Part shown: positions 2,226-32,353 of the stretch, piece by piece
Numbering within the stretch: the first letter of the stretch is position 1
Layout of the letters: each line of letters starts with the position of its first letter
DNA from: Thermodesulfobacteriales bacterium
GTDB taxonomy: Bacteria; Desulfobacterota; Thermodesulfobacteria; Thermodesulfobacteriales; Thermodesulfatatoraceae
Length of the DNA stretch: 32,809 nt
Direction: 5' to 3'
NCBI GenBank assembly: GCA_026988575.1
Contig: JALSKZ010000080.1
Location: forward strand, 1 to 32,809
The notes under the pieces: generated by a model
Told to the model about the DNA's origin: nothing
Seen by the model: the letters and a program-made list of their open reading frames with translations, nothing else
Database searches by the model: none
Program-made: the position numbers and the translations under genes

Positions 2226-2630
2226 CTAATGGAGGATCTTAGGGAGATAGATTTTTAACAGACCTTCTTCCAGAGTTGCTCTTGCTTCTTGCCCATTTAC
2301 CAAACAAGGGAGTCTTACCACGCGTTCAAAGGGACCGTATGCTCCTTCCAGTTGGTATACACGGGCTTGGCGATAGAGAGGCTCTGTTTGTCCTCGCACA
2401 CGAAGAAAACGGTCTTCTAAGGTGATCTCTAGACTTTCTCGCTGGGCCCCGGGGCAGGAAACTACCACTATAAGCTCTGCGGGTGATTCAAAGATGTCTA
2501 CCGGGGGAATCCAGGAAGTGGTTCTTCGGGGCAGGTGAGCTATGTTTACCCACCAACTTTGTTCTAAGTGGACAAAGAGTCTGTGTAGCTCTTGTAGCCC
2601 TTGCCCCAAGGAGATCCGGATTATAGCCAT
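2226..2630 (-). CDS. Hsp20/alpha-crystallin family small heat shock protein
   Basis: This ATP-independent holdase binds unfolding proteins in the cytoplasm. The 134-residue product has a short N-terminal arm followed by the alpha-crystallin domain (about 45-132): the strand opening PPVDIFESPAELIVVVSCPG, then LEITLEDRFLRVRG, the loop around YGPFERVVRLP, and the closing EEGLLKIYLPK. The start is placed at 2630 because GAGGAGGG lies just before that ATG; an upstream in-frame ATG at 2678 would add 16 residues without a site. The ribosome binding site overlaps the stop codon of the upstream binding-protein gene (2641-2643), so translation is likely coupled. A heat-shock gene ending an envelope-sensing operon would make sense as a stress output; that is inference. 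Confidence 0.9.
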   Translation of the reverse strand: MAIIRISLGQGLQELHRLFVHLEQSWWVNIAHLPRRTTSWIPPVDIFESPAELIVVVSCPGAQRESLEITLEDRFLRVRGQTEPLYRQARVYQLEGAYGPFERVVRLPCLVNGQEARATLEEGLLKIYLPKILH

Positions 2631-2640
2631 TTTACCCTCC

Positions 2641-3753
2641 TCAAAAGGAGTTTTTGTTAGGCTTACAAACGGGTTCATAAGTTAGGTCTTGATATTGATA
2701 AACCCCCACGGTGGGGGCCAAAAGGCCATAATGATCATCGGCAGAGATAAAATAGTACCCGGTAATCCCCTTTAACAGCCCTACTTTGGTTAGTCCCTTG
2801 GCCAGTCGATGGTGTAGAGCAAACTCTTCTCCTCTTCTCAAAAGGAGGAAGGCATCTGCCCAAGAGGCCAGAGAGAGGTCATAGGTGATGTTTTCAGTGC
2901 GTACGAATTCTTTAAGGAGGTCATAAATTTGAGCGTTCCCGTAGAAAAAAGCTCTTGGGGCCAAAAAGGCCGCTCCCACAAAGGGTTTTCCCTGTAATTC
3001 CGGATAAGTTTGGAGAAACCCTTCGGGGGAAATATGGTGGGAGAAAAATATAGGAATTTTGAGCCCCAGTTGATCTGCATTACGTGCTACGGTTAGAGAA
3101 GCCCAAGGACCAGCCCAACACACTATGGCTTGAGTATCCAAGAGGGAATTTAGTTGAAAGGTTACGTCGGTGTCTTTGGGGCCAAAGAATCGGGTGGCTT
3201 TGATTTTTAAGGTATATTCGGCAGCATAGGCCTCTAGCCAGTGTTGCCCTTCACGCCCCCAGTAGTCATTGCTAATCAAGAGACCTATTTGGTGGAACCC
3301 CTTTTGGTGTAGGCAGTGAAAAAGCACCTTTACAGCAGCCCGGGTGGAAAGACCGGTCCGAAAGACCTTCCCTATAGGGTGGTTAATTTGTTTGATGGGA
3401 TTTATTTCTCCAGCAGTAAGGATCAAGGGCAGGTCCAGTTTTTGGGCTTCTTGGGCTAGAAGAGGCGCCCCTGTAGGACGTGCTGGGCCTATAAGGACAT
3501 CAACCCCTTGGACAAAGGCCTCTTTTACTAGCGCAGGCATACGTGAGGCCTTCCCTTGAGAATCTAGAAATACCAACTGGATACTACCTGGAGGCCAAAG
3601 GGCGGAGGTTAGTACATTAACCCAATCTTGTAAGACCTGGCCTTCTCTTGTTTGTACGCCACTTAAAGGCAAGACTACGCCAACTTTTAAATAGGCCCAT
3701 AAAGGAGTGACCCAGAACAAAAGGCCTACAATAAGGAACAAAAGACGTTTCAT
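2641..3753 (-). CDS. Periplasmic ligand-binding protein, Leu/Ile/Val-receptor type
   Basis: The 370-residue protein has a signal peptide (MKRLLFLIVGLLFWVTPLWA) followed by a type I periplasmic-binding fold (Peripla_BP_6 type). It opens with KVGVVLPLSG, then GVDVLIGPARPTGAPLLAQ and LPLILTAGEINP. The mid-domain IGLLISNDYWGREG resembles the hinge-proximal strand of branched-chain amino acid receptors, and YDLSLASWADAFLLL the usual C-terminal helix. It probably binds a small ligand in the periplasm; LpoA-like or transporter-independent receptor roles are alternatives. No ABC permease or ATPase for it is in the window. It starts 5 bp after the TPR lipoprotein gene and is followed by hsp20. It is a distant relative of the binding protein at 6731-7903 in the same operon. 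Confidence 0.82.
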   Translation of the reverse strand: MKRLLFLIVGLLFWVTPLWAYLKVGVVLPLSGVQTREGQVLQDWVNVLTSALWPPGSIQLVFLDSQGKASRMPALVKEAFVQGVDVLIGPARPTGAPLLAQEAQKLDLPLILTAGEINPIKQINHPIGKVFRTGLSTRAAVKVLFHCLHQKGFHQIGLLISNDYWGREGQHWLEAYAAEYTLKIKATRFFGPKDTDVTFQLNSLLDTQAIVCWAGPWASLTVARNADQLGLKIPIFFSHHISPEGFLQTYPELQGKPFVGAAFLAPRAFFYGNAQIYDLLKEFVRTENITYDLSLASWADAFLLLRRGEEFALHHRLAKGLTKVGLLKGITGYYFISADDHYGLLAPTVGVYQYQDLTYEPVCKPNKNSF

Positions 3754-3758
3754 GGCCT

Positions 3759-4559
3759 CTATTTTTGTTTTAGGCGCTTTAGGCGTGCCAAATATTTACG
3801 GGCTACCCGCGCCTGGGCGGTATGTGGGTAAGTCCTTACAAGCTTTTTAAATACAATGCTTGCCGCTTCTGTATCCCCTAGACGCAAGAAAGAAAAACCT
3901 TGTTTCAAGAGAGCTGCAGGCACTTTGTTACTCTTGGGAAATTGGTCAATAACCTTTTGGTAGGCCAATATAGCATCTTCGTATCTATTACGATTAAAAA
4001 GGCACTCCCCGATCCAGAAGAAGGCGTTAGGGGCCCTTTTGCCCTGAGGGTACTGTTTGAGATATTCTTCAAATATCTGTTGGGCTTGGGCGTATTTTTT
4101 TTGTCTAAACAGGTCTAAACCTTTTTGATATAGGGTTTGTTCGTCGGGCTGTTGCTTTTGGTCTGCTATCTCGCCTTGGGCTGGGGCAAGCCTTGCTTCT
4201 AAGGCCGTTATGCGCTTGAGGATTTCTGCTTGAAATTCGCGAAAGGCTTCTCTATCTTGACTTTGTTGATAAGACAATTGTTCCATCTGGCCGTTTAAAC
4301 GAAGTTCGTCAGCACGAATTTTTTCGAGTTCGGAGAATAAATTGGCCTGTTGGGCAGCAAGCTTATCTAGCCGATTAAGGTCTTGAGACTGTTTGGTCAG
4401 CTTTACTACTTGCCGCTCCAGGGCAGAAAGACGTTTATCAAGGGCCTGAAGCTGTACGTTTAAGGTGTAGATTTGGCCTTGGAGGTCTTGCAGCTGTTGG
4501 TTAGAGACACAGCCCAGGAACAAAAAAGATAAACTACAAAGAATTAGCAGGCGCCTCAT
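3759..4559 (-). CDS. YbgF/CpoB-like lipoprotein with coiled coil and TPRs
   Basis: The 266-residue product begins with a lipoprotein signal (LSFLFLGC, lipid-modified Cys17), so it is expected to be anchored in a membrane facing the periplasm. Residues about 20-125 form a long coiled coil with many Q, L, K and E residues. Residues about 143-262 hold three TPR-like repeats (LYQKGLDLFRQKKYAQAQQIF, FFWIGECLFNRNRYEDAILAYQ, ALLKQGFSFLRLGDTEAASIVF). This is the layout of YbgF/CpoB, which in E. coli coordinates the Tol-Pal system with peptidoglycan synthesis; the lipid anchor and the absence of tol-pal genes nearby differ from that case. It starts 10 bp after the sensor kinase gene ends. Domain call is firm; the Tol-Pal role is inference. 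Confidence 0.82.
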   Translation of the reverse strand: MRRLLILCSLSFLFLGCVSNQQLQDLQGQIYTLNVQLQALDKRLSALERQVVKLTKQSQDLNRLDKLAAQQANLFSELEKIRADELRLNGQMEQLSYQQSQDREAFREFQAEILKRITALEARLAPAQGEIADQKQQPDEQTLYQKGLDLFRQKKYAQAQQIFEEYLKQYPQGKRAPNAFFWIGECLFNRNRYEDAILAYQKVIDQFPKSNKVPAALLKQGFSFLRLGDTEAASIVFKKLVRTYPHTAQARVARKYLARLKRLKQK

Positions 4560-4569
4560 ATTTAAGTTT

Positions 4570-6765
4570 CTAGTCAGTTACTCCTCTTTCGTCAAGTTCC
4601 GTTTTTGTAAGGGCCTCTTCAATGATAAGGAGTATTTCTTGAAGTTTATAGGGCTTAGAGAGAAAGCCTTTGGCTCCTTGAGCTAATAATTCTCTTACTT
4701 TTTTGTCCATCATATAGCCAGTGACCAAGACTATCGGGGTGTGGGGATCTATTTCTCTCAAGTCTTTGAATATCTCTAGACCATCCCTGCCAGGCATAAT
4801 CAAGTCTAAAAGAATCAAATCTATCTGTTCTTTTTTTTCTCGAAAGATCTCTACCCCTTCTTCTCCGCTGGCCGCCAAGATGACCTTGTACCCGTTTTCT
4901 TCCAGGAGGAGCTTTCCCATTTGACGCACTTCTTCTTCGTCGTCGATGAGGAGGATGGTTTTTCCTTTTAAAAGATGGACATCCCTTTTGGGTTTGGTCT
5001 CTGGAGATGTTTTTTCTTCTCTCGTCTCCTCGGTGCAAAGGGGTAGATAGATAGTAAAGATGGTCTTATGCGGTCTAGATAAGACATCGATATAGCCACC
5101 ATGGTTGCGCACGATACCATAGACCACAGAAAGTCCGAGACCTGTGCCTTCACCGGGCTCTTTGGTGGTAAAAAAGGGATCAAAGATCTTTTCTAAAATT
5201 TCTTCAGGTATACCAGGGCCATTGTCTTCTACTTCGATGGCTAAATACTGTCCCGGCTCACATTTGTCGCCCGTAGTAAAAAAGCGTTCTTCTAGGGTAC
5301 AAGTATAAGTACGTAGTATCAGGCGTCCGCCTCCTTGGCTCATCAAGGCATCACGGGCATTTATACACAAATTGAGTAGGACCTGGTTCAGCTGCGAAGG
5401 ATCTGCCTTAATTAAAGGTAAATCTGTTTGCAGTTCTTTAACTAAGCGAATTTTCTTCTCTAGAGAGTGTTCCAAAAAAGTAACCACTTCTTCGATTATC
5501 TGGTTTATCTGGACGTCTTCTACTTGATATTTTCCTGCTCTAGCAAAGGCAAGTAGATTTTTGACCAAACCAGCTGCTCTTAAAGACGATTTTTCTATAG
5601 CTTCTACGTAACGTGTGAGTGGGTTGTTGACTAACCGACGTTTGAGTAACTCGGCATAACCAAGTATGGCAGCTAAAATGTTATTGAAGTCGTGGGCAAT
5701 GCCTCCAGCCAAAAGACCAACACTTTCTAGTTTTTGGGCCTGAAGCAGTTGCTGTTCCATTTCTTTTATCTTGGATATATCTCGAATAATGGTAAAGACC
5801 AAAACAAATTTATCGAAGTTAGGGGGTAATTCGTCTTCTAGTATTGATGCTCCTATTAAACGCATAGATATTAGAGCCGGTAATTCTGAACCATCTTTGC
5901 GTTTTAAAATTACTTCTTTGTTTCGTATTTCCCCCACAAAAAAGAGTTCATCAAGCAGTTGGTCATAAACCTTAGGGTCTAGATATAGTTGATGCATATC
6001 TATTTTGGCTATTTCTTCTTCCGAAGGGATACGGAGCATCTCTTGAAATGCAGGATTATAAGAAACTATTTGGCCGTCTTCGGTGGTAATAACGTTACCA
6101 TCAGGGGCTAGCTCAAAAAGGGTTCGATATTTTATTTCGGAGTGTTTTAACTTGTTTTGTTCTTGAAGGAGTAGAGACTGCGATTTTCTTACCCGTTCTT
6201 CTACCCGTTGTATTTCGAAGAGGGGCAACAAAAACAGGGTAATCCCTTCGAGGGATCCGCAGAAGAGAGAAAAAATAAGGAGTTTGAAGGTGTAAGAAAG
6301 GGCCTTTTTAAGACTTATGCCTACTTCCACATACCCGTATAGAGAGCCTTCGTAGAAGACACTTTTTTGAGACTTTACGATCAAAAACCAGTTATGAGGT
6401 ACGGAGGCCTTAGAGATTTTGGCTATAAGGCGCCCTTTGGGATCGAAAAAATGCACAAAAGCAATGTCTGGGTAGTTCAAGCTCTTTTTTATGTATTTTT
6501 TCCAGTTTAGAGGGTGTGTTTCCAAGGTTTGTCTGAAAAAAGAGCTTACATATTTTGCGTGGACCTGGGCTTGTTTTAGGGCCTCTTGACGTGCCACATA
6601 ATAATAGCTGGCTGGAATGGCGAAACAGATAAAGAGCCCAGCAATGAAAGAAAGGGGTAGCATTTTTAAGGCAAAAGATTTCGTTATAGGATACGAAGGG
6701 TCATTCCCTAGGAGGAGCTGGAGGAGACTTTTAGATCTCTGGAGAAAGGCAGAAAAGTTGGTCAT
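4570..6765 (-). CDS. Hybrid sensor histidine kinase (PAS-HisKA-HATPase-REC)
   Basis: The 731-residue protein has two membrane segments (about 36-57 and 160-183) enclosing a periplasmic sensor region of about 100 residues. A PAS domain follows (about 208-335, [20 protein letters not shown]). Next comes a HisKA helix with the phospho-accepting His358 (GGIAHDFNN) and an ATPase domain with N box ([11 protein letters not shown]), G1 (DNGPGIP), F box (FDPFFTTK) and G2 (GEGTGLGL). A C-terminal receiver domain has D608, D609, acceptor Asp654 and Lys704. No DNA-binding output domain or separate response regulator is nearby, so the phosphate must pass elsewhere. The ATG overlaps the 3' end of the upstream binding-protein gene by 35 nt and has only a weak ribosome binding site, suggesting coupled translation. 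The sensed ligand is unknown. Confidence 0.93.
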
Positions 6766-7903
6766 TTTTGATATGTATTAAATATACCTTTTTTAGGCCT
6801 TGATGATCGTTGGCTGAAAAACTTATTTTTTCAGCCAGGCCTAAATCTAGATTTCGGAATCTTTCCAAAGTAACTATAAGTTTTTGCCTCGAGGGATGGG
6901 GGCCTAATTTTTGAAGGGCAACGGTAAATAATTTGGCATTTAAAAAGCCCTCAAAGGATAGAGAGGAATAACTTTGCTGGGGAAAATAACGCTGAAATAA
7001 TTTTCTGTATTCTTTAGCTGCTGGGAGATCTTCGTTAAAAGACGGAAGTACTTGGGTTATATATACGTCGTAAGGTAAATTCTTTATTTCTTGAGCCAAA
7101 GTATAAGCTCCGGTAAAAGAGATGCCCAAAAATATTATGTTTTTGGCCTTTTCCCTTAGCCACAGATCTTGCATAAATTTAGCATAGATTTCTGCGGTTC
7201 CAATAATAGCAATCACCTCGGGGTTAGTTTTGAGCAGTTTATTTAGCTGTTTATCCAGATTGTGTGCCCCTCGGAAAAAATAGGCCTTTCCTACCAGGTC
7301 GAGATCGTAATGGAGGAGGCGCCTTTTTATCCCTTCTAAGCCGTTTAGTCCGTATGCGTCATGTTGGTAAAGTATGGCAAAACGCTTTTTGTGTAATTTT
7401 TTGATCAAAAAGTCTACCGCTAAACGGCTTTCGTCCCAATAGCTAGGACGAAGATTAAAGACATAACGCCGTACAGGTCGGCGTAATTCTATGGCTCCTG
7501 TGATAGGAAACAGGAGGGGAATGTGTTTTTTTTTACAGAACTCTACTACGGTAAGGGTAGTGGGTGTGCCTACTAGGCTCAAAAGGGCAAAAACGCGGTC
7601 TTTTTCTACAAGATTTTTGACGTTACCAATGGTTAAAGGGGGATTATAGGCGTCATCATAGGCCTTTAAGACGATTTTACGGCCACAAACTCCACCTTGC
7701 TGGTTTATGAAGTTAAAATAGGCCTGCATCCCTTTTAATACTTCCTGTCCGAGGTAAGCCGCATGGCCGGAAAGAGGCAAAGAAGTTCCTAAGAGGATCT
7801 TGTCAGGAGAGATGCCAGGGGTTTCGGCCTTTGCCAGATTCCCATAGACCAGCAAACATATCCAAGCAGTAAAGAGAAATACTAAAATAACCCTTTTGTA
7901 CAT
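6731..7903 (-). CDS. Periplasmic ligand-binding protein, Leu/Ile/Val-receptor type
   Basis: The 390-residue product starts with a signal peptide (about residues 1-26, ending NLAKA). The mature part opens with DKILLGTSLPLSGHAAYLG and continues with YFNFINQQGGVCGRKI, LKAYDDAYNPP and VFALLSLVGTPTT. These are the standard landmarks of Peripla_BP_6 receptors of the LivJ/LivK/UrtA type, which bind branched-chain amino acids, urea or related small molecules. No transporter permease genes are adjacent. Instead the gene overlaps the start of a membrane sensor kinase, the arrangement expected if it presents its ligand to that kinase (compare the known pairs TorT-TorS and LuxP-LuxQ). It is the first gene of the operon; AAGGGAGGGGCG precedes its ATG. 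Confidence 0.85.
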   Translation of the reverse strand: MYKRVILVFLFTAWICLLVYGNLAKAETPGISPDKILLGTSLPLSGHAAYLGQEVLKGMQAYFNFINQQGGVCGRKIVLKAYDDAYNPPLTIGNVKNLVEKDRVFALLSLVGTPTTLTVVEFCKKKHIPLLFPITGAIELRRPVRRYVFNLRPSYWDESRLAVDFLIKKLHKKRFAILYQHDAYGLNGLEGIKRRLLHYDLDLVGKAYFFRGAHNLDKQLNKLLKTNPEVIAIIGTAEIYAKFMQDLWLREKAKNIIFLGISFTGAYTLAQEIKNLPYDVYITQVLPSFNEDLPAAKEYRKLFQRYFPQQSYSSLSFEGFLNAKLFTVALQKLGPHPSRQKLIVTLERFRNLDLGLAEKISFSANDHQGLKKVYLIHIKNDQLFCLSPEI

Positions 7904-8463: not shown

Positions 8464-8648
8464 TGGCCGAGGGAGAACGAGAATTTCGCTGCTTTGCGTG
8501 TGGTTATGAATGGGCTGTTCCCTATGGTACCGGAAGGGTGCTTATGTGTCCTAAGTGTGGTAGTTTCAGAATCAAAAGGATGAATCCTGGCCCTCCTCCA
8601 GGGAGGAGGGGGTGGCGTTGGAGAATGCGTTGGGGCACCAAAAGATAA
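8463..8648 (+). CDS. Small zinc-ribbon protein
   Basis: This 61-residue protein carries one zinc ribbon: FRCFACGYEW at residues 8-17 and MCPKCGS at about 28-34, so four cysteines in two CxxC knuckles. The C-terminal tail is Pro/Gly/Arg/Trp-rich (GPPPGRRGWRWRMRWG) and resembles the low-complexity style of the preceding DUF5320 protein. The start ATG overlaps the stop of that gene (8461-8463 TAA, ATG from 8463). No enzymatic motif is present. It may bind zinc or iron, or act as a small regulator or adaptor of the metal transporter gene that follows; the sequence does not settle this. Confidence 0.8.
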   Translation: MAEGEREFRCFACGYEWAVPYGTGRVLMCPKCGSFRIKRMNPGPPPGRRGWRWRMRWGTKR

Positions 8649-9907
8649 ATCTCTCTAAGCAAACCAGTATATTAACCAGGGTAGCCCTTGCGGCTACCCT
8701 GTTAAACTTTTTATTGGCGGTTTTTAAATATCTCTTGGGGCGCTATACTGGTAGCTTAGCCCTTTGTGCTGACGCCCTTCACTCTTTTACCGATGTTATT
8801 AGTTCCTTGTCGGTCTATCTTGGTCTTAAGTTTGCCGAGCGTAAGACCAAATCTTTTCCCTATGGCCTATACAAACTGGAAAATCTTGTCGCCCTCCTTA
8901 CCTCTGTATTTATTTTTTTGGCGGCCCTGGAAATTTTGCATCAAGCCTTTCATGGCCAAAATATAATCATACCCCGTAGGGTGCCGGTGACGGTGGTAAT
9001 TTTTTCCCTTATGACCCTTGTTATGTGGCTTTTTTCTCGCTGGGAACTGAAAATGGCCCAAAAGTCTGGCTCTCCAAGCCTTGCTGCCGATGCGCAACAT
9101 ATCACTACAGATATATTGGCCACGATTATTATTTTAATAGGCCTTGTGGGAGGGGCCTTTGGTATTCATTTTGTCGATCGTTTAGCGGCCTTATTTGTCG
9201 CGGTCTTGATCTTTAAGATTGGTCTAGAAATTGCCGGCGAGGCCTTGAAGGTGCTGTTAGATGCCAGCCTTGAGCCAGAAATCTTTGCCCGTATCACCGA
9301 TATTATTCGCGCTTTTCCGGAAGTAGTAGAGATAAAGTCCCTTACCGGGCGGCGTTCAGGTAGATTTTGCTTTGTAGAGGCCGAAATAGTGGTAGACGTT
9401 TCCTCTCTGGAAGAGGCCCATGAGCTCGTTACCTATATCGAAGAAGAGATATATGATGCTTTTCCCGAGATCGATCGTGTTATCATCCATTTTGAACCCC
9501 CAAAGCTTAGGCGATACCTCTTGGCTATTCCTACCGAAAATAAGGGGGAAAAAGTATCAGAGCATTTTGGTTGTGCCCCAGAATTTTACCTGTGGGAAAT
9601 AGAGTGTGAGCCGGCGGCCAGGGTAAAAAGTCAACGTCTCCTCCCCAATCCCTATGTTAAGGAGGACAAAAGGCGTGGCGTGAAGGTGGTGGAATGGCTG
9701 GCCAAAGAAGGTGTAGAGGCGGTGTTGATCTCTAAACAGGAAGTCAGAGAAAGGGGTTTTATCTATGCCCTTTTGGCCCACGGTATAAGGCCTATTTTTT
9801 GTCCCCAGGCTAGTCTAGAGGCCTTAAAACAAGCCCCTCCTTGCCCCCCTTTTAGTCTTGTAACTCTCCCGTCAATTGGGCAAGACGATACTCGTGTATT
9901 TGCCTGA
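8612..9907 (+). CDS. Cation diffusion facilitator transporter fused to a NifX-like domain
   Basis: The 431-residue protein is a CDF metal exporter (residues about 20-300) with a C-terminal NifX/NafY-like cofactor-binding domain (about 302-405). The transport site reads HD-HD: His57 and Asp61 in ADALHSFTD, His163 and Asp167 in ADAQHITTD, which in characterised CDFs favours zinc, though Fe, Co or Mn export is possible. The cytoplasmic CDF domain spans about 215-298 and ends HFEPP. The added domain starts LLAIPTENKGEKVSEHFGCA, the typical opening of dinitrogenase iron-molybdenum cofactor biosynthesis-type proteins. The start is a GTG directly after GGGAGGAGGGG, inside the zinc-ribbon gene (37 nt overlap). 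The fused domain probably senses or buffers a metal or Fe-S species. The 3' end overlaps the convergent pyrD by 56 bp. Confidence 0.9.
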   Translation: MALENALGHQKINLSKQTSILTRVALAATLLNFLLAVFKYLLGRYTGSLALCADALHSFTDVISSLSVYLGLKFAERKTKSFPYGLYKLENLVALLTSVFIFLAALEILHQAFHGQNIIIPRRVPVTVVIFSLMTLVMWLFSRWELKMAQKSGSPSLAADAQHITTDILATIIILIGLVGGAFGIHFVDRLAALFVAVLIFKIGLEIAGEALKVLLDASLEPEIFARITDIIRAFPEVVEIKSLTGRRSGRFCFVEAEIVVDVSSLEEAHELVTYIEEEIYDAFPEIDRVIIHFEPPKLRRYLLAIPTENKGEKVSEHFGCAPEFYLWEIECEPAARVKSQRLLPNPYVKEDKRRGVKVVEWLAKEGVEAVLISKQEVRERGFIYALLAHGIRPIFCPQASLEALKQAPPCPPFSLVTLPSIGQDDTRVFA

Positions 9908-10760
9908 GCAAATCTTCTATCTCTTCAAGGATTCTTGCGGGGGCCATGGGATCAAGTAGAGTGGCGGTACCTATTTGGACCGCCTTTGCCCCGGCTAAGA
10001 TGTAGGCCAAGACGTCTTGGCCAGAGGTTATGCCTCCACAGCCGATAATAGGAGCTTTTAGGCGACGATAGATCTCCCTTACTAACCTCAAGGTTAAGGG
10101 TTTGATGGCCGGTCCTGAAAGCCCCCCAAAACCAGCGGCAATATCAGGTTTGCGCCTTATGACGTCTACTACAAGGGCTGGATAGGTGTTGGCTACCGTG
10201 AGAGCGTCAGCGCCGGCATCAAGGGCGCTTTCGGCCACCTCAAATACAGGGCCTACGGGAGAGAGTTTTACCACCAGCAGGCGGGGCCAGATGTCTCGAA
10301 TGTCCTTTATTAACAAGGCTACTGTCTTGGGGTCTTGACCAAATTGTAGCCCCCCTTTTTTTACATTGGGACACGAAATATTGACTTCGATGCCTTGGAT
10401 TTTGGTTTCTAAAAGCCCTTCTACTACGGCTAAATACTCTTCAACATTTTGTCCAAAGACATTTACTAAAAGGGGGACTTTAAAACATGCTAGTCTAGGC
10501 CATATGTCCCTTTTAAAAATTTCAAGCCCTGGATTTTCTAAGCCTATGGCGTTGACCAGGCCACAGGGGGTCTCGGCTATGCGCGGGGGAGGGTTCCCTG
10601 GGCGAGGGTGCAGGGATATGCCCTTGGTAACCAGGGCGCCCAAAATAGAGAGGTCTAAATAAGAAGAGAGCCCTTCTCCGAACCCCCAGGTGCCGGACGC
10701 TAATAACAGGGGGTTTTGGAGCCTCAAAGGGCCTAAAGAAACCGAAAGATCTAGCTTCAC
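9852..10760 (-). CDS. pyrD: Dihydroorotate dehydrogenase, class 1B-like
   Basis: PyrD oxidises dihydroorotate to orotate with FMN, the fourth pyrimidine step. The product of 302 residues begins at a GTG preceded by AAAGAGGCCCAA. Starts further upstream would cover a separate miniprotein gene. It has LLLASGTWGFGEG, LVNAIGLENPG, VNVFGQN, and NISCPN with the catalytic cysteine typical of class 1 enzymes, then KLSPV, ANTY, GLSGPAIKP and GCGGI. The FMN-phosphate block is AVQIGTATLLDP. Class 1B enzymes usually work with an iron-sulfur electron-transfer subunit PyrK; no pyrK is in the window. The GTG start overlaps the stop of the miniprotein gene (GTGA), so it is translationally coupled to pyrB-pyrC expression. 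Confidence 0.92.
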   Translation of the reverse strand: MKLDLSVSLGPLRLQNPLLLASGTWGFGEGLSSYLDLSILGALVTKGISLHPRPGNPPPRIAETPCGLVNAIGLENPGLEIFKRDIWPRLACFKVPLLVNVFGQNVEEYLAVVEGLLETKIQGIEVNISCPNVKKGGLQFGQDPKTVALLIKDIRDIWPRLLVVKLSPVGPVFEVAESALDAGADALTVANTYPALVVDVIRRKPDIAAGFGGLSGPAIKPLTLRLVREIYRRLKAPIIGCGGITSGQDVLAYILAGAKAVQIGTATLLDPMAPARILEEIEDLLRQIHEYRLAQLTGELQD

Positions 10761-10855
10761 TTGGGCCTCTTTTGACGTATTTTCCATTCTAGGTAGATCC
10801 ACAGAATGCCTATGGCTAGGCCTATAGCGGCCATTTCTCCAAGCCATTCGAGCAT
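10757..10855 (-). CDS. 32-residue single-span membrane miniprotein between pyrC and pyrD
   Basis: This small gene has its own site AAGGATGTAAA before the ATG. It begins 1 bp after the pyrC stop, and its TGA shares bases with the GTG of pyrD. The product has a short acidic N-terminus (MLEWLGEM), a hydrophobic stretch at residues 9-22 (AAIGLAIGILWIYL), and a basic C-terminal tail ending KIRQKRPK. This predicts a single membrane span with the positive tail in the cytoplasm. I recognise no family. Its tight fit between two coupled genes argues for real translation; the same arrangement would also serve only to carry ribosomes from pyrC to pyrD. A role in bringing PyrD to the membrane is a guess. 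Confidence 0.6.
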   Translation of the reverse strand: MLEWLGEMAAIGLAIGILWIYLEWKIRQKRPK

Positions 10856-28729: not shown

Positions 28730-30211
28730 CTAGCGTTTTAGCACCAGCAGGCGGTATGAGCCAAACATCCTTCCTATTTCATCGCGCCAGGGGTTTTCCA
28801 CCACCGCAATCAGGCGGCTGTCAGGAGACACGGCAAGGTGAAAAAAGCATGGTCCAAGGGTGGGGAAATAGCCGGCAAACCTTGTAAGGCCTCCTCCTGG
28901 CCGGGTCAGGTCAAAGACGAGCACGCCAAACTGCCGCACCCTTACGTCTTCACGCCTGAAAGCCGCCGCCGCCACGGCAAGGGTTTTCCCTTGCGGGTCA
29001 AGGGCTACCCCCTGGAGCTTAAAAGGCGAGGGGAACTGCCAGAGGACTTTGGCACTTGCAGGCTCAACGGCAAAGAGCATCCGGGCTTTGGGGTGTGGGC
29101 CGGCAGGCTTGTCTCCGGCCATGGGAAGGCCGTAAGGAAGGGTGCTCTCCCCTGAGACCACGTAGAAAATGCTGTTTGCGCCAAAAGTCCCGTAGCTTAG
29201 ACTTGCAGCAACCGGAAAGCCGCCAATTACAATGGGTGTAGCAAGGTTTAAGGTGTGAAGTAGCCTTTTGGCCTTAAGGTCAAAGATAAAGAGCCTGCCA
29301 TCGCTTGCCCCCAGGGCCCCAAAGTGGCCGTCAGGGCTTACGGCAACAGACTCCCAGGCAGAAACCCGCTTAAAATAGGGTTTAAGCGGCGTAAGCTGGT
29401 AAATAAAAATTTCTTTGCCGCTACGTCCAGAAAGAGCAACAAAGCTTTGGGGAGGTGGCCCGGGTTTTTGCCTGTCCCCCTCATACTCAGAGGGCATAAG
29501 GGTAACGGTAGCCACCACCTGGCCTTTGTGGTCAGCATCAGCATAGATCATGGTCACCGGGGCCGGGCCGTCTTTAGGGTAGGCCCAGCGCACCTGGCCA
29601 GCAGGGCTTAGCCGCCAAAGGCGTGAAAGCCTGCGCCAGGTGCTCTTTTTCTCGTCATACCAGGAATGAAGCCCAAGCACCAGGAGATCACCCCCTGGGA
29701 GTACTTTAAGCCGGTAAATGCCAGGTAGCTTGTAAACACCATAGATGTCGCCCGGGGCGGCCGGGGTGCCGCGCTCAAGGCTTTTAGCGGTGTTAAAACA
29801 CCAAAGCCTTTTTCCTGTTTTGGTTTCAAGGGCGCAGACTTCGGCGTCCGGGCTCTGGGCCCCGTAGTAAAGCACGCGGCCGTCCTCTGAAAAGGCCACC
29901 CTTTTTACCATGCCTTCAGGGACTCGCTTTTCCCAGATGAGACGCCCGCTTTCTGCGGAAAAGAGCATGAGCCTTCCGGTAAAGGTGCCAAGGGCAAGCA
30001 TTTTGCCGTTTTTTGAAAAGCGCAAACAGGCGTCTGCAGGATGCCCAGCACGGGCATAAAAAGATACGTCTTCAAGCTCTTTTTCCCACAAAAGCTCAAG
30101 CCCAAAGGCCTTAACTTTTTTCAAATCGTAGGCCAAAGCCCCCTTAGCAGCTAGCAAGAAGCTAAACGTATTTACGAAAAAAAGCATAAAAAGGCCTAAG
30201 CACCTCGGCAT
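28730..30211 (-). CDS. Secreted PQQ/WD40-like beta-propeller protein
   Basis: The 493-residue product has a signal peptide of about 27 residues (MPRCLGLFMLFFVNTFSFLL, ending KGALA). It continues with repeated blades such as GTFTGRLMLFSAESGRLIWEK, CALETKTGKRLWCFN, VALSGRSGKEIFIYQL, GALGASDGRLFIFDLKAKRLL and FAVEPASAKVLWQF. These are quinoprotein/WD40-like repeats without recognisable catalytic or PQQ-binding residues, so a binding or scaffold role in the periplasm is likely. The start at 30211 is chosen for AGGGGG seven bases upstream and the signal peptide; the frame is open to 30355. It overlaps the end of the ECF T-component gene by 50 bp, hence the same operon. Function with the importer is unknown. 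Confidence 0.78.
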   Translation of the reverse strand: MPRCLGLFMLFFVNTFSFLLAAKGALAYDLKKVKAFGLELLWEKELEDVSFYARAGHPADACLRFSKNGKMLALGTFTGRLMLFSAESGRLIWEKRVPEGMVKRVAFSEDGRVLYYGAQSPDAEVCALETKTGKRLWCFNTAKSLERGTPAAPGDIYGVYKLPGIYRLKVLPGGDLLVLGLHSWYDEKKSTWRRLSRLWRLSPAGQVRWAYPKDGPAPVTMIYADADHKGQVVATVTLMPSEYEGDRQKPGPPPQSFVALSGRSGKEIFIYQLTPLKPYFKRVSAWESVAVSPDGHFGALGASDGRLFIFDLKAKRLLHTLNLATPIVIGGFPVAASLSYGTFGANSIFYVVSGESTLPYGLPMAGDKPAGPHPKARMLFAVEPASAKVLWQFPSPFKLQGVALDPQGKTLAVAAAAFRREDVRVRQFGVLVFDLTRPGGGLTRFAGYFPTLGPCFFHLAVSPDSRLIAVVENPWRDEIGRMFGSYRLLVLKR

Positions 30212-30992
30212 AAAACACCCCCTGAAGATAGGCCCAAAAAAGTATTTTCCCCAAAAAAATCGCCAAAAGTAATCCCATAAGCACCAGGGAAAGGGCTCTT
30301 TCCATCCGTGGCCAGGGCGGCAAAAAGTAATTTTTAGCCGGGGCCAGGGGATCAAAGCCTCTGGTTAGAAGCGTATCCGCAAGGGCACGCGAGTCCCTTA
30401 TCGCCCTAACAAGGAGCGGATACACCACGGCCATTTCCGTGCGCAGGGTGTAGATGAGACCACGTCGAAAAGGCCGATAACCCCTTAGCCTTAAAGCCTG
30501 GCGCACCAGATGCAAATCCTCAGCCAGACGGGGAAGCGCCCGCACCGAGGCCGCGGCCATAAGGCTTAAGCCTCTGGGCAAAGGAAGCGCCCCCACAGCC
30601 CGAAAAAGCATTTCAGTAGAGGTTGAATTTATGAGATAGGCCCCGGCCGAAAGGGCCGCCACAAAACGCAGGCTTTGGATGAACCCGTAACGAAAACCCT
30701 CCTTGATAAAACAAAGCCCGGGGAAGGTCTCACTTGGAGGCACAAGACAAAAGACGATGGTGCGCGGGAAGTCCTGATAAAAGAGCCCCTGGCTTATCAT
30801 GATGCCCCAGACAGTAGTAGAAACCAGAAGAAAAAAGCCTTTTAACCAGCTTCTTGAGGGCCAGGCAGCCAAAAACAAAAATACCGACCCCAGGGCCAGA
30901 GCCATAAGAGAAAAAGCCTGGTCTAAGAGCACCGAGAGCCCGGAAATAACAAAGACCAGGATGAATTTCGTATAAGGATGAAGACTTTTCAC
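30162..30992 (-). CDS. ECF transporter T component (energy-coupling transmembrane protein)
   Basis: The 276-residue membrane protein has four or five hydrophobic segments and two cytoplasmic coupling motifs: RQALRLRGYRP (about 166-176) and ADTLLTRGFDPL (about 207-218), corresponding to the paired x-R-G helices by which EcfT engages its ATPases. EcfT connects the substrate-binding S component to the ATPase pair. Its ATG overlaps the stop of the fused ATPase gene by 4 nt, consistent with co-translation. The length matches EcfT/CbiQ proteins. Confidence 0.88.
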   Translation of the reverse strand: MKSLHPYTKFILVFVISGLSVLLDQAFSLMALALGSVFLFLAAWPSRSWLKGFFLLVSTTVWGIMISQGLFYQDFPRTIVFCLVPPSETFPGLCFIKEGFRYGFIQSLRFVAALSAGAYLINSTSTEMLFRAVGALPLPRGLSLMAAASVRALPRLAEDLHLVRQALRLRGYRPFRRGLIYTLRTEMAVVYPLLVRAIRDSRALADTLLTRGFDPLAPAKNYFLPPWPRMERALSLVLMGLLLAIFLGKILFWAYLQGVFYAEVLRPFYAFFRKYV

Positions 30993-32353
30993 CGCGTTTC
31001 CTCCTCAATCTTTCCTTTTTCAAAGCGCAAAATGCGGGTGGCAAGGGCGTATGCCAGGTCTTCATCGTGGGTGGAAAAGACGACAAGCTCTGCCCCTATG
31101 GCCTTAAATAAGCGCAGGGCGTTTTTTGGGTCCTGGGCGGTGGTGGGTTCATCAAGCAAAAGCACCTGGGGACGCCCGGTAAGTAGCGCGCCAAGGGCTA
31201 CCCGCAGGCGTTCCCCACGGGAAAGGGAAAAAGGCGCGCGTTTAAGCTTATCAAAAAGATGAAGCTCCTTTGCTACCTGAGACACCCGAGGCTCTATTTC
31301 CTTTCTGGTAAAGCCGAGGTTTTCCAGGGAAAAAGAGAGTTCTTCGGCTACTTTGGTGCGGATGAGCATGAGGTCTGGGTCTTGAAGCAAAAGGGCAAGG
31401 GCAAATCTTTTTTTATCCTGCGGAAGGAGATAGCGTATTGCGCCCTTAACAGGCTTTTTTAGCCCGGCCAGAAGGTGCAAGAAGGTAGTTTTTCCCGAGC
31501 CGTTTGGTCCAAGCAGGGCCACCCTTTCGTTTTCGTAAAAAGAAAAGTTTAGCCCGTTAAAAAGAGGCGGTCTTTTAGGGTAGGAAAAGTACAGGTTTTT
31601 GATCTCAACGGCCTTTTGCCCTTTAGGCGGGGAGGGCAGAGGGTTAACCTCCTTTTTAGGAGGCGTAAAATCTTTTGGCTTGCCAAGGAACTTGGCCTTT
31701 CCCCCTTCGAGATAAAGCAGCCGATCAACCCTTGGCAGGACATATTCCAGGCGGTGTTCGGCAATGACGATGGTTATGCCCTGTGAGGCAAGGCTTTTCA
31801 AAATATCCATAACAGTTTGCGCAGCCTTAGGGTCAAGCTGGGAAAGGGGCTCATCAAGCAAAAGGAGCTTTGGCGAAACCGCAAGGGCCTGGGCAATGGC
31901 CACTCGCTGGCGCTCCCCGCCTGAAAGGGAAGAAATTTCCCGGGCTTCGTATCCCGAAAGCCCGACTTCAGCAAGGGCTTTCTTTACCCGTTTAGTGACC
32001 ACTTCTTTAGAAAGCCCGAGATTTTCAAGGCCAAAGGCCACTTCGGCAAAGACCGTGTCTGCCAGAAGCTGCTCTGCCGGGCTCTGAAACACCACGGTCA
32101 CCTCTGGAAAGAGCTTAACAGGCGAGATAGGCCAGGTTTTTCCAAGGACTTTTACCAGGCCTTTAAATTCGCCTCCGGCCTCATAGGGAATAAGCCCGCA
32201 GAGCACGGAAATAAGGGTGCTTTTGCCTGAGCCGGTTTCTCCTGCAAGTAAAAAGATTTCGCCCTGTCTTACCGCAAAACTTATGTCTTTTAAGTTTGAG
32301 CCCGGGCTTTTGGGGTAGCGGTAGGAAAGGGCCTTCACTTCAATTACGGTCAT
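30989..32353 (-). CDS. ECF transporter ATPase, two ABC domains in one chain
   Basis: The 454-residue protein contains two ABC ATPase domains. The first has Walker A GETGSGKST (38-46), the Q loop VVFQSPAEQL, signature LSGGERQRVAIAQAL and Walker B LLLLDEPLSQLDP. The second (from about 245) has Walker A GPNGSGKTT, Q loop LLLQDPDLML, signature LSRGERLRVALGALL and LLLDEPTTAQDP, then FSTHDEDLAYALATRI. This fused EcfA-EcfA' form is like YkoD of the thiamine-precursor importer. It powers uptake together with the neighbouring T and S proteins. The start overlaps the upstream gene by 4 nt. Confidence 0.95.
   Translation of the reverse strand: MTVIEVKALSYRYPKSPGSNLKDISFAVRQGEIFLLAGETGSGKSTLISVLCGLIPYEAGGEFKGLVKVLGKTWPISPVKLFPEVTVVFQSPAEQLLADTVFAEVAFGLENLGLSKEVVTKRVKKALAEVGLSGYEAREISSLSGGERQRVAIAQALAVSPKLLLLDEPLSQLDPKAAQTVMDILKSLASQGITIVIAEHRLEYVLPRVDRLLYLEGGKAKFLGKPKDFTPPKKEVNPLPSPPKGQKAVEIKNLYFSYPKRPPLFNGLNFSFYENERVALLGPNGSGKTTFLHLLAGLKKPVKGAIRYLLPQDKKRFALALLLQDPDLMLIRTKVAEELSFSLENLGFTRKEIEPRVSQVAKELHLFDKLKRAPFSLSRGERLRVALGALLTGRPQVLLLDEPTTAQDPKNALRLFKAIGAELVVFSTHDEDLAYALATRILRFEKGKIEEETR

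Follow-up and report, generated by a model that had tools for sequence, protein, structure and literature searches.

Five neighbouring genes in a Thermodesulfobacteriales contig: a probable receptor-kinase sensor pair beside a separate CpoB-linked set

The window analysed here comprises 32,809 nt of contig JALSKZ010000080.1 (GCA_026988575.1) from a Thermodesulfobacteriales bacterium of the Thermodesulfatatoraceae. On its minus strand, positions 2226-7903 hold five near-contiguous genes, beginning with a periplasmic binding protein (REC1) and a membrane hybrid histidine kinase (KIN), followed by a CpoB-like gene, a second binding-protein gene (REC2) and Hsp20:

6731..7903, minus strand: REC1, periplasmic binding protein of the Peripla_BP_6 type (Leu/Ile/Val type, LIV; Pfam 3.5e-49), signal peptide by eye; putative receptor of the sensor pair
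4570..6765, minus strand: KIN, membrane hybrid histidine kinase with Pfam matches to PAS, HisKA, HATPase_c and Response_reg
6731..6765, minus strand: 35-nt stretch shared by the reading frames of REC1 and KIN
3759..4559, minus strand: CpoB/YbgF-like TPR lipoprotein (Pfam TPR), lipobox LFLGC by eye
2641..3753, minus strand: REC2, second protein of the binding-protein fold; Pfam Peripla_BP_6 at 7.5e-13, residues 23-255 only
2226..about 2631-2633 (listed open reading frame from 2678), minus strand: Hsp20, Pfam Hsp20 at 9.4e-10

The order, the domains and the 35-nt overlap were confirmed by open reading frames (ORFs) and Pfam matches and agree with an earlier description made from the sequence alone (the sequence-only reading). 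The Pfam scan also bore out its claim that 2226-7903 contains no permease or ABC ATPase gene. The intergenic gaps comprise 10 nt between KIN and CpoB, 5 nt between CpoB and REC2 and 9 nt between REC2 and Hsp20, if the ATG at about 2631 is used. Judged by the sequence, this start behind GAGGAGG, which gives a protein of 134 amino acids, is the more likely one, and with it REC2 and Hsp20 are probably without overlap. Eight of nine Hsp20 relatives in the same family have 132-137 amino acids, the ninth (L069) having 146 in the ORF list. The CpoB-like protein scored 120.7 bits against the YbgF model TIGR02795 (curated cut-off 90.1) and is the only protein of the source genome above this cut-off. 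Promoter and terminator scans stayed at the level of shuffled sequence (8 vs 8.5; 12 vs 9.8) and were not used, and an Rfam scan of the window showed one tRNA and nothing else.

Gene order across relatives

The sequence-only reading had taken the locus as one signalling unit, in which two receptors bracket one kinase with an envelope-stress output, and a five-gene order that is not kept in related genomes had been named beforehand as a refutation. For the comparison, 60 relatives were searched and the gene neighbourhoods were read, with REC2 orthologues at 16 other loci covering 3.6-15 kb of DNA each. CpoB lies directly upstream of REC2 at all 16, including L076, where only the end of CpoB is present at a contig edge, and L062, whose CpoB was missed by the ORF maker and recovered by tblastn. 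PyrD was found upstream of CpoB at 11 and Hsp20 downstream of REC2 at 10 of these loci, the latter being the nine same-family genomes and G010, in which a Pfam-confirmed stand-alone receiver gene (L071:5497-5883) lies between REC2 and Hsp20. Neither REC1 nor KIN was found within the DNA read at any of the 16 loci. In all nine same-family genomes REC2 is accompanied by CpoB and Hsp20, and its locus lacks REC1-KIN. In three of them (G003-G005) a REC1 orthologue is present, each time followed by a KIN orthologue, at sites unrelated to REC2. REC1-KIN was not found in the other six, of which three are only 76-83% complete, and the genus of the window is represented by one genome. In the window itself, REC1-KIN and the genes for a DUF5320 and a CDF protein fill the 5.3 kb between PyrD and CpoB. 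The further features of the window are:

9852..10847, minus strand: PyrD, which adjoins CpoB in 11 of the 16 other REC2 loci and here lies 5.3 kb away
8612-9907: CDF cation-efflux protein with a C-terminal Nitro_FeMo-Co domain (Pfam)
30162-32353: CbiQ and ABC ATPase, ECF type, 22 kb from the five-gene stretch

Since the REC2 loci lack REC1-KIN and REC1-KIN occurs at unrelated sites, two modules meet in the window. They are independent and lie end to end, so that the five genes are adjacent in this genome without being one conserved unit. Recurrence in other genomes places both the overlap of REC1 with KIN and the adjacency of CpoB to REC2 beyond chance, while the five-gene order does not recur. 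The single five-gene unit was therefore rejected; it would have mattered more if true, but it fails the comparison. With a probability of about 0.7, we interpret the locus as a transporter-free two-component sensor, REC1-KIN, next to a separate envelope-linked set of CpoB, REC2 and Hsp20, which may be an older possession of the family and order, independent of the kinase. On the strength of conservation, the pair reading is well supported and the two-receptor, five-gene reading is not.

The REC1-KIN pair

At all eight other loci with a REC1 of at least 45% identity, a KIN orthologue follows downstream. Besides G003-G005, with 49-54% identity to KIN, these are five loci with 43-50% identity, which are assigned to Desulfurivibrio (L112), Deltaproteobacteria (L113 and L181), Candidatus Desulfofervidaceae (L114) and Desulfocapsa (L117). 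The overlap of REC1 and KIN comprises 35 nt at all four same-family loci (the window and G003, G004 and G005) and 29 nt at four of the five loci outside the family (L112, L113, L114 and L181).

A wider set was formed by the best 80 of at least 584 REC1 relatives confirmed in a scan of named genomes, mostly labelled as Desulfobacterota-type metagenome-assembled genomes, and it includes the five loci outside the family. The search for these 80 loci used patterns covering REC1 residues about 148-156 and 176-185, and the conservation figures for REC1 are therefore biased; moreover, the ORF maker favours long ORFs and errs in GC-rich loci, giving no REC1 ORF in 9 of the 80. Neighbours were counted by tblastn, for which the queries were seven Liv proteins and one each of a kinase, a chemoreceptor and a GGDEF protein. 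Pfam bore on both permeases of contig C73 and on two of the three Liv ATPases among these queries; some loci fall into more than one class. A same-strand kinase catalytic match within 4.5 kb downstream was determined for 61 of the 80, a same-strand chemoreceptor match within 5 kb for five and a downstream GGDEF match for two. Liv-type ATPases lie near two (L162 and L176) and Liv permeases near just one (L176). For 74 of the 80 relatives a downstream ORF was available, and the resulting 75 proteins, including KIN, gave matches to HATPase_c (56), sCache_3_2 (56), HAMP (45), receiver (11) and MCPsignal (2). KIN itself showed no sCache or HAMP match.

The same tendency was seen beyond this set. 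In G004 and G005 chemoreceptor genes are preceded by paralogous receptors, and in G057 by a relative. In G015 and G030 a large hybrid kinase, with an Hpt gene close by, follows receptors of the REC1 group, and G015 also has a receiver-GGDEF protein there. Altogether, the closest members of this large receptor group are mostly found beside kinases or chemoreceptors and not beside Liv transporters, so that annotating them routinely as "ABC transporter substrate-binding protein" would be misleading. At L117 and L181 a chemoreceptor gene lies upstream of REC1-KIN, and one receptor might serve both the chemoreceptor and KIN. The REC1-type ORFs that stand before a kinase at L116 and L118 are about 780 codons long and may each encode a tandem or fused receptor. 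Another Peripla_BP_6 gene with no permease in view, followed by a HAD-like phosphatase gene (by eye), was observed on contig C52 of the source genome (L083), in G006 (L097) and in G001 (L098); at L083 and L097 a HAMP-type histidine kinase comes after the phosphatase gene, confirmed by Pfam for L083.

KIN comprises two transmembrane segments (about 29-58 and 160-185) enclosing a periplasmic stretch of about 59-158, followed by PAS, HisKA (H358), HATPase and receiver (D654) domains, while no HAMP or Hpt was found in the Pfam scan. In the model of residues 1-205, whose mean predicted local distance difference test (pLDDT) is 84, the membrane helices enclose one long and one short helix as well as four strands. 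The top Foldseek rows for this sensor region were a WalK-YycH model, a LapD-type output domain and further extracytoplasmic kinase domains, with LuxQ at rank 38 (E 0.069). In the VIA comparison, the best row was 4u64 (Z 10.1, root-mean-square deviation 4.0, 118 aligned residues), and CitA reached a Z of about 9; TorS was absent from the 50 rows shown, which excludes nothing. Based on these models, the periplasmic region of KIN is likely Cache-like. For REC1, the nearest solved structures by sequence are 4kv7 and 3lop. In the pattern-biased set, G112-T113-P114, G136, R141, R211, S262-F263 and E318 are invariant in 81 of 81 sequences, and T115, T135 and A137 are kept in 80.

Because 61 of the best 80 relatives have a kinase downstream and only one has Liv permeases nearby, and since the KIN sensor is predicted to be Cache-like, REC1 most likely serves KIN as its dedicated signalling receptor. 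REC1 would bind a small solute in the periplasm and dock on the Cache-like region of KIN, which could alter the autophosphorylation at H358. The phosphate would then pass to D654 of KIN's own receiver and onward via an unlinked Hpt protein to a regulator. That KIN has a receiver but no adjacent regulator, as the sequence-only reading had stated, was found to be correct, and since neither an Hpt nor a regulator lies beside KIN, the signal would have to leave through an unlinked protein. Such a phosphorelay is possible because the source genome encodes one stand-alone Hpt (contig C74), in addition to one Hpt in a 912-codon frame of CheA size. The whole five-gene stretch is probably transcribed together. 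The proposal is grounded in the genes and their domains, the conserved overlap and pairing, the separate gene-order histories and the predicted Cache-like sensor fold.

Several observations weigh against this assignment. At L117, REC1 and KIN are separated by a gap of 81 nt and do not overlap. No downstream kinase was found in 19 of the best 80 relatives, although the records of six of these (L115, L136, L141, L185, L188 and L189) end within 3.5 kb. The VIA scores of 9-10 for Cache domains lie little above those of unrelated ribosomal chains (7.6-8.7), and the periplasmic stretch of KIN matched no Pfam family, even at E 10. The correlation of distance matrices was higher for REC1 with the sensor than with the catalytic region in 41 loci (0.895 vs 0.740) and in 36 loci without the KIN type (0.789 vs 0.638), but in the 18 loci with a regulator gene the values were 0.901 for the regulator, 0.880 for the catalytic and 0.744 for the sensor region. 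The correlation thus fails to single out the sensor region and is read as co-inheritance, not as contact. Finally, according to PMC11113362, the kinases AgtS and AruS of P. aeruginosa have binding-protein genes nearby whose products showed no role in their activation, so that gene adjacency is no proof of a receptor-kinase function.

The CpoB-REC2 pair and other readings of the locus

The association of CpoB with REC2 is the more unusual part of the locus compared to the sensor pair. The model of REC2 (mean pLDDT 90) shows a normal type I binding-protein fold with 4jb0 and 7ylt as best rows (Z 35.9). When 297 genomes of the phylum were searched with a profile, the scores were 518-569 bits within the family, 352 in G010 and at most 188 for the next match, and from this drop after G010 it follows that REC2 proper is seen only within the order. 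CpoB is the broader of the two: among the 60 relatives, TIGR02795 had matches in 55 at E 1e-15 and the REC2 search in 31 at E 1e-5, several of them through other receptors. In the tree, REC2 is placed among the LIV-type receptors, apart from three LpoA-like domains. None of the 11 REC2 rows has the Thr-x-Thr of pocket loop 1, while six of the seven LIV-type rows from this side of the tree have it, a hint that REC2 has changed or lost its ligand. The presence of CpoB at every REC2 locus in turn suggests an envelope role for REC2. No account of a CpoB-REC2 pair was found in the open-access literature searched for links of CpoB or LpoA to binding proteins. With the isolation of this conserved gene pair, its putative envelope role becomes directly testable.

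A possible though unlikely explanation is that REC2 and CpoB together correspond to LpoA as a two-protein analogue and serve the synthesis of peptidoglycan or the constriction of the outer membrane, not nutrient binding. LpoA combines a TPR-like domain with the binding-protein fold, and CpoB acts on PBP1B-LpoB (PMC4632607). The position of CpoB directly upstream of REC2 at all 16 other loci, the missing Thr-x-Thr and the LppC match (PF04348) of the window REC2 would fit this explanation; the match reaches only 14.9 bits (E 0.011) and thus lies below the gathering score of 28.8. Proteins with fused TPR and binding-protein parts, LppC matches and an LpoA-like layout also occur in other genomes of the phylum (L092, L093 and L094). 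However, LppC had no match in the two other REC2 proteins scanned (L067 and L073), and REC2 groups with the LIV-type receptors. LpoA appears at Foldseek ranks 26, 37 and 44, behind solute-binding proteins; it is also missing among the 50 VIA rows displayed, from which no exclusion follows. Furthermore, no lipobox was seen in REC2 by eye, and within the order CpoB is also present where REC2 proper was not found. Based on the LppC cut-off and the placement off the LpoA-like branch, REC2 was rejected as an orthologue of LpoA, which is kept as a functional analogy. Taken one step further, REC2 would have given up nutrient binding to work with CpoB in the coordination of cell wall and outer membrane, as an independently evolved two-gene counterpart of LpoA kept through much of the order and here located behind a solute-sensing kinase; we regard this as quite unlikely.

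Very unlikely is a functional unit of all five genes, in which both receptors report to KIN while CpoB and Hsp20 form an envelope-stress output. The single strand and the close spacing (a 35-nt overlap, gaps of 10 and 5 nt, and a short junction before Hsp20) would be consistent with it. So would the REC1-KIN locus of G004, where the preceding gene encodes a protease of the DegP/HtrA type and thus again concerns envelope quality. A similar gene is seen in G005, with a PpiC/SurA-like gene further up (by eye). No DegP-type protease gene precedes REC1 in G003, however, REC1 and REC2 fall on different branches of the receptor tree, and the 16 CpoB-REC2 loci without REC1 or KIN argue against such a unit. 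It is also highly improbable that REC1 and REC2 are ordinary nutrient receptors for Liv-type permeases elsewhere, with accidental neighbours. The Liv-type permeases on contig C73 of the source genome (Pfam BPD_transp_2) and the Liv neighbours of L162 and L176 mentioned above would fit this reading. However, a receptor gene immediately upstream already belongs to the C73 permeases, REC1 and KIN overlap in a conserved manner, and no Liv permease was seen in the DNA fetched for 79 of the best 80 REC1 relatives, which is short for some records. Among the remaining ORFs of the window that were scanned, transporter matches were restricted to the CDF protein and the ECF-type CbiQ/ABC ATPase. ECF systems are not known to use a periplasmic binding protein.

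Comparison with known systems

The CpoB-like protein resembles CpoB (YbgF) in passing the YbgF model. REC2 shares the binding-protein fold with the C-terminal domain of LpoA, but differs from it as a lone binding-protein domain encoded separately from the TPR protein, without a lipobox by eye, below the LppC cut-off and off the LpoA-like branch.

For REC1-KIN, precedents of signalling by a binding protein and a kinase are LuxP-LuxQ, TorT-TorS and XylFII-LytS, as outlined in parts of PMC6321045. In LuxP-LuxQ, the autoinducer-2 system of Vibrio, a periplasmic binding protein signals via a membrane hybrid kinase with a PDC/Cache-type sensor (passages of PMC8534201 and PMC6321045), and KIN is likewise a hybrid with one receiver, in which no Hpt was found. 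Unlike LuxQ, which has a double PDC according to a passage of PMC8534201, KIN has a region of about 100 amino acids with one predicted Cache-like unit, and REC1 differs from LuxP in belonging to Peripla_BP_6. TorS, the kinase of the TMAO system, is also a hybrid kinase dependent on a binding protein (sections of PMC6321045). Its sensor is described as all-alpha in PMC8534201, in the part seen, whereas the KIN model has four strands; TorT-TorS is therefore the poorer structural analogue. In XylFII-LytS, which responds to xylose, and in other pairs, the binding protein acts on a sensor kinase and not only on a transporter (same sections of PMC6321045). KIN remains far below the cut-offs of both curated models, with 113.1 bits against 1200 for the LuxQ model NF041947 and 145.6 bits against 676.5 for the TorS model TIGR02956. 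XylFII-LytS belongs to receptor and sensor families other than those of REC1 and KIN. Of the TorT-TorS or LuxP-LuxQ type unit proposed by the sequence-only reading, the transporter-free receptor-kinase pair has stood, with its recurrence at all eight close REC1 loci and a kinase downstream in 61 of the best 80, while TorT-TorS is the weaker structural parallel. Altogether, REC1-KIN probably belongs to the already known class of binding-protein-dependent sensor kinases and, by analogy, most likely works like LuxP-LuxQ or XylFII-LytS.

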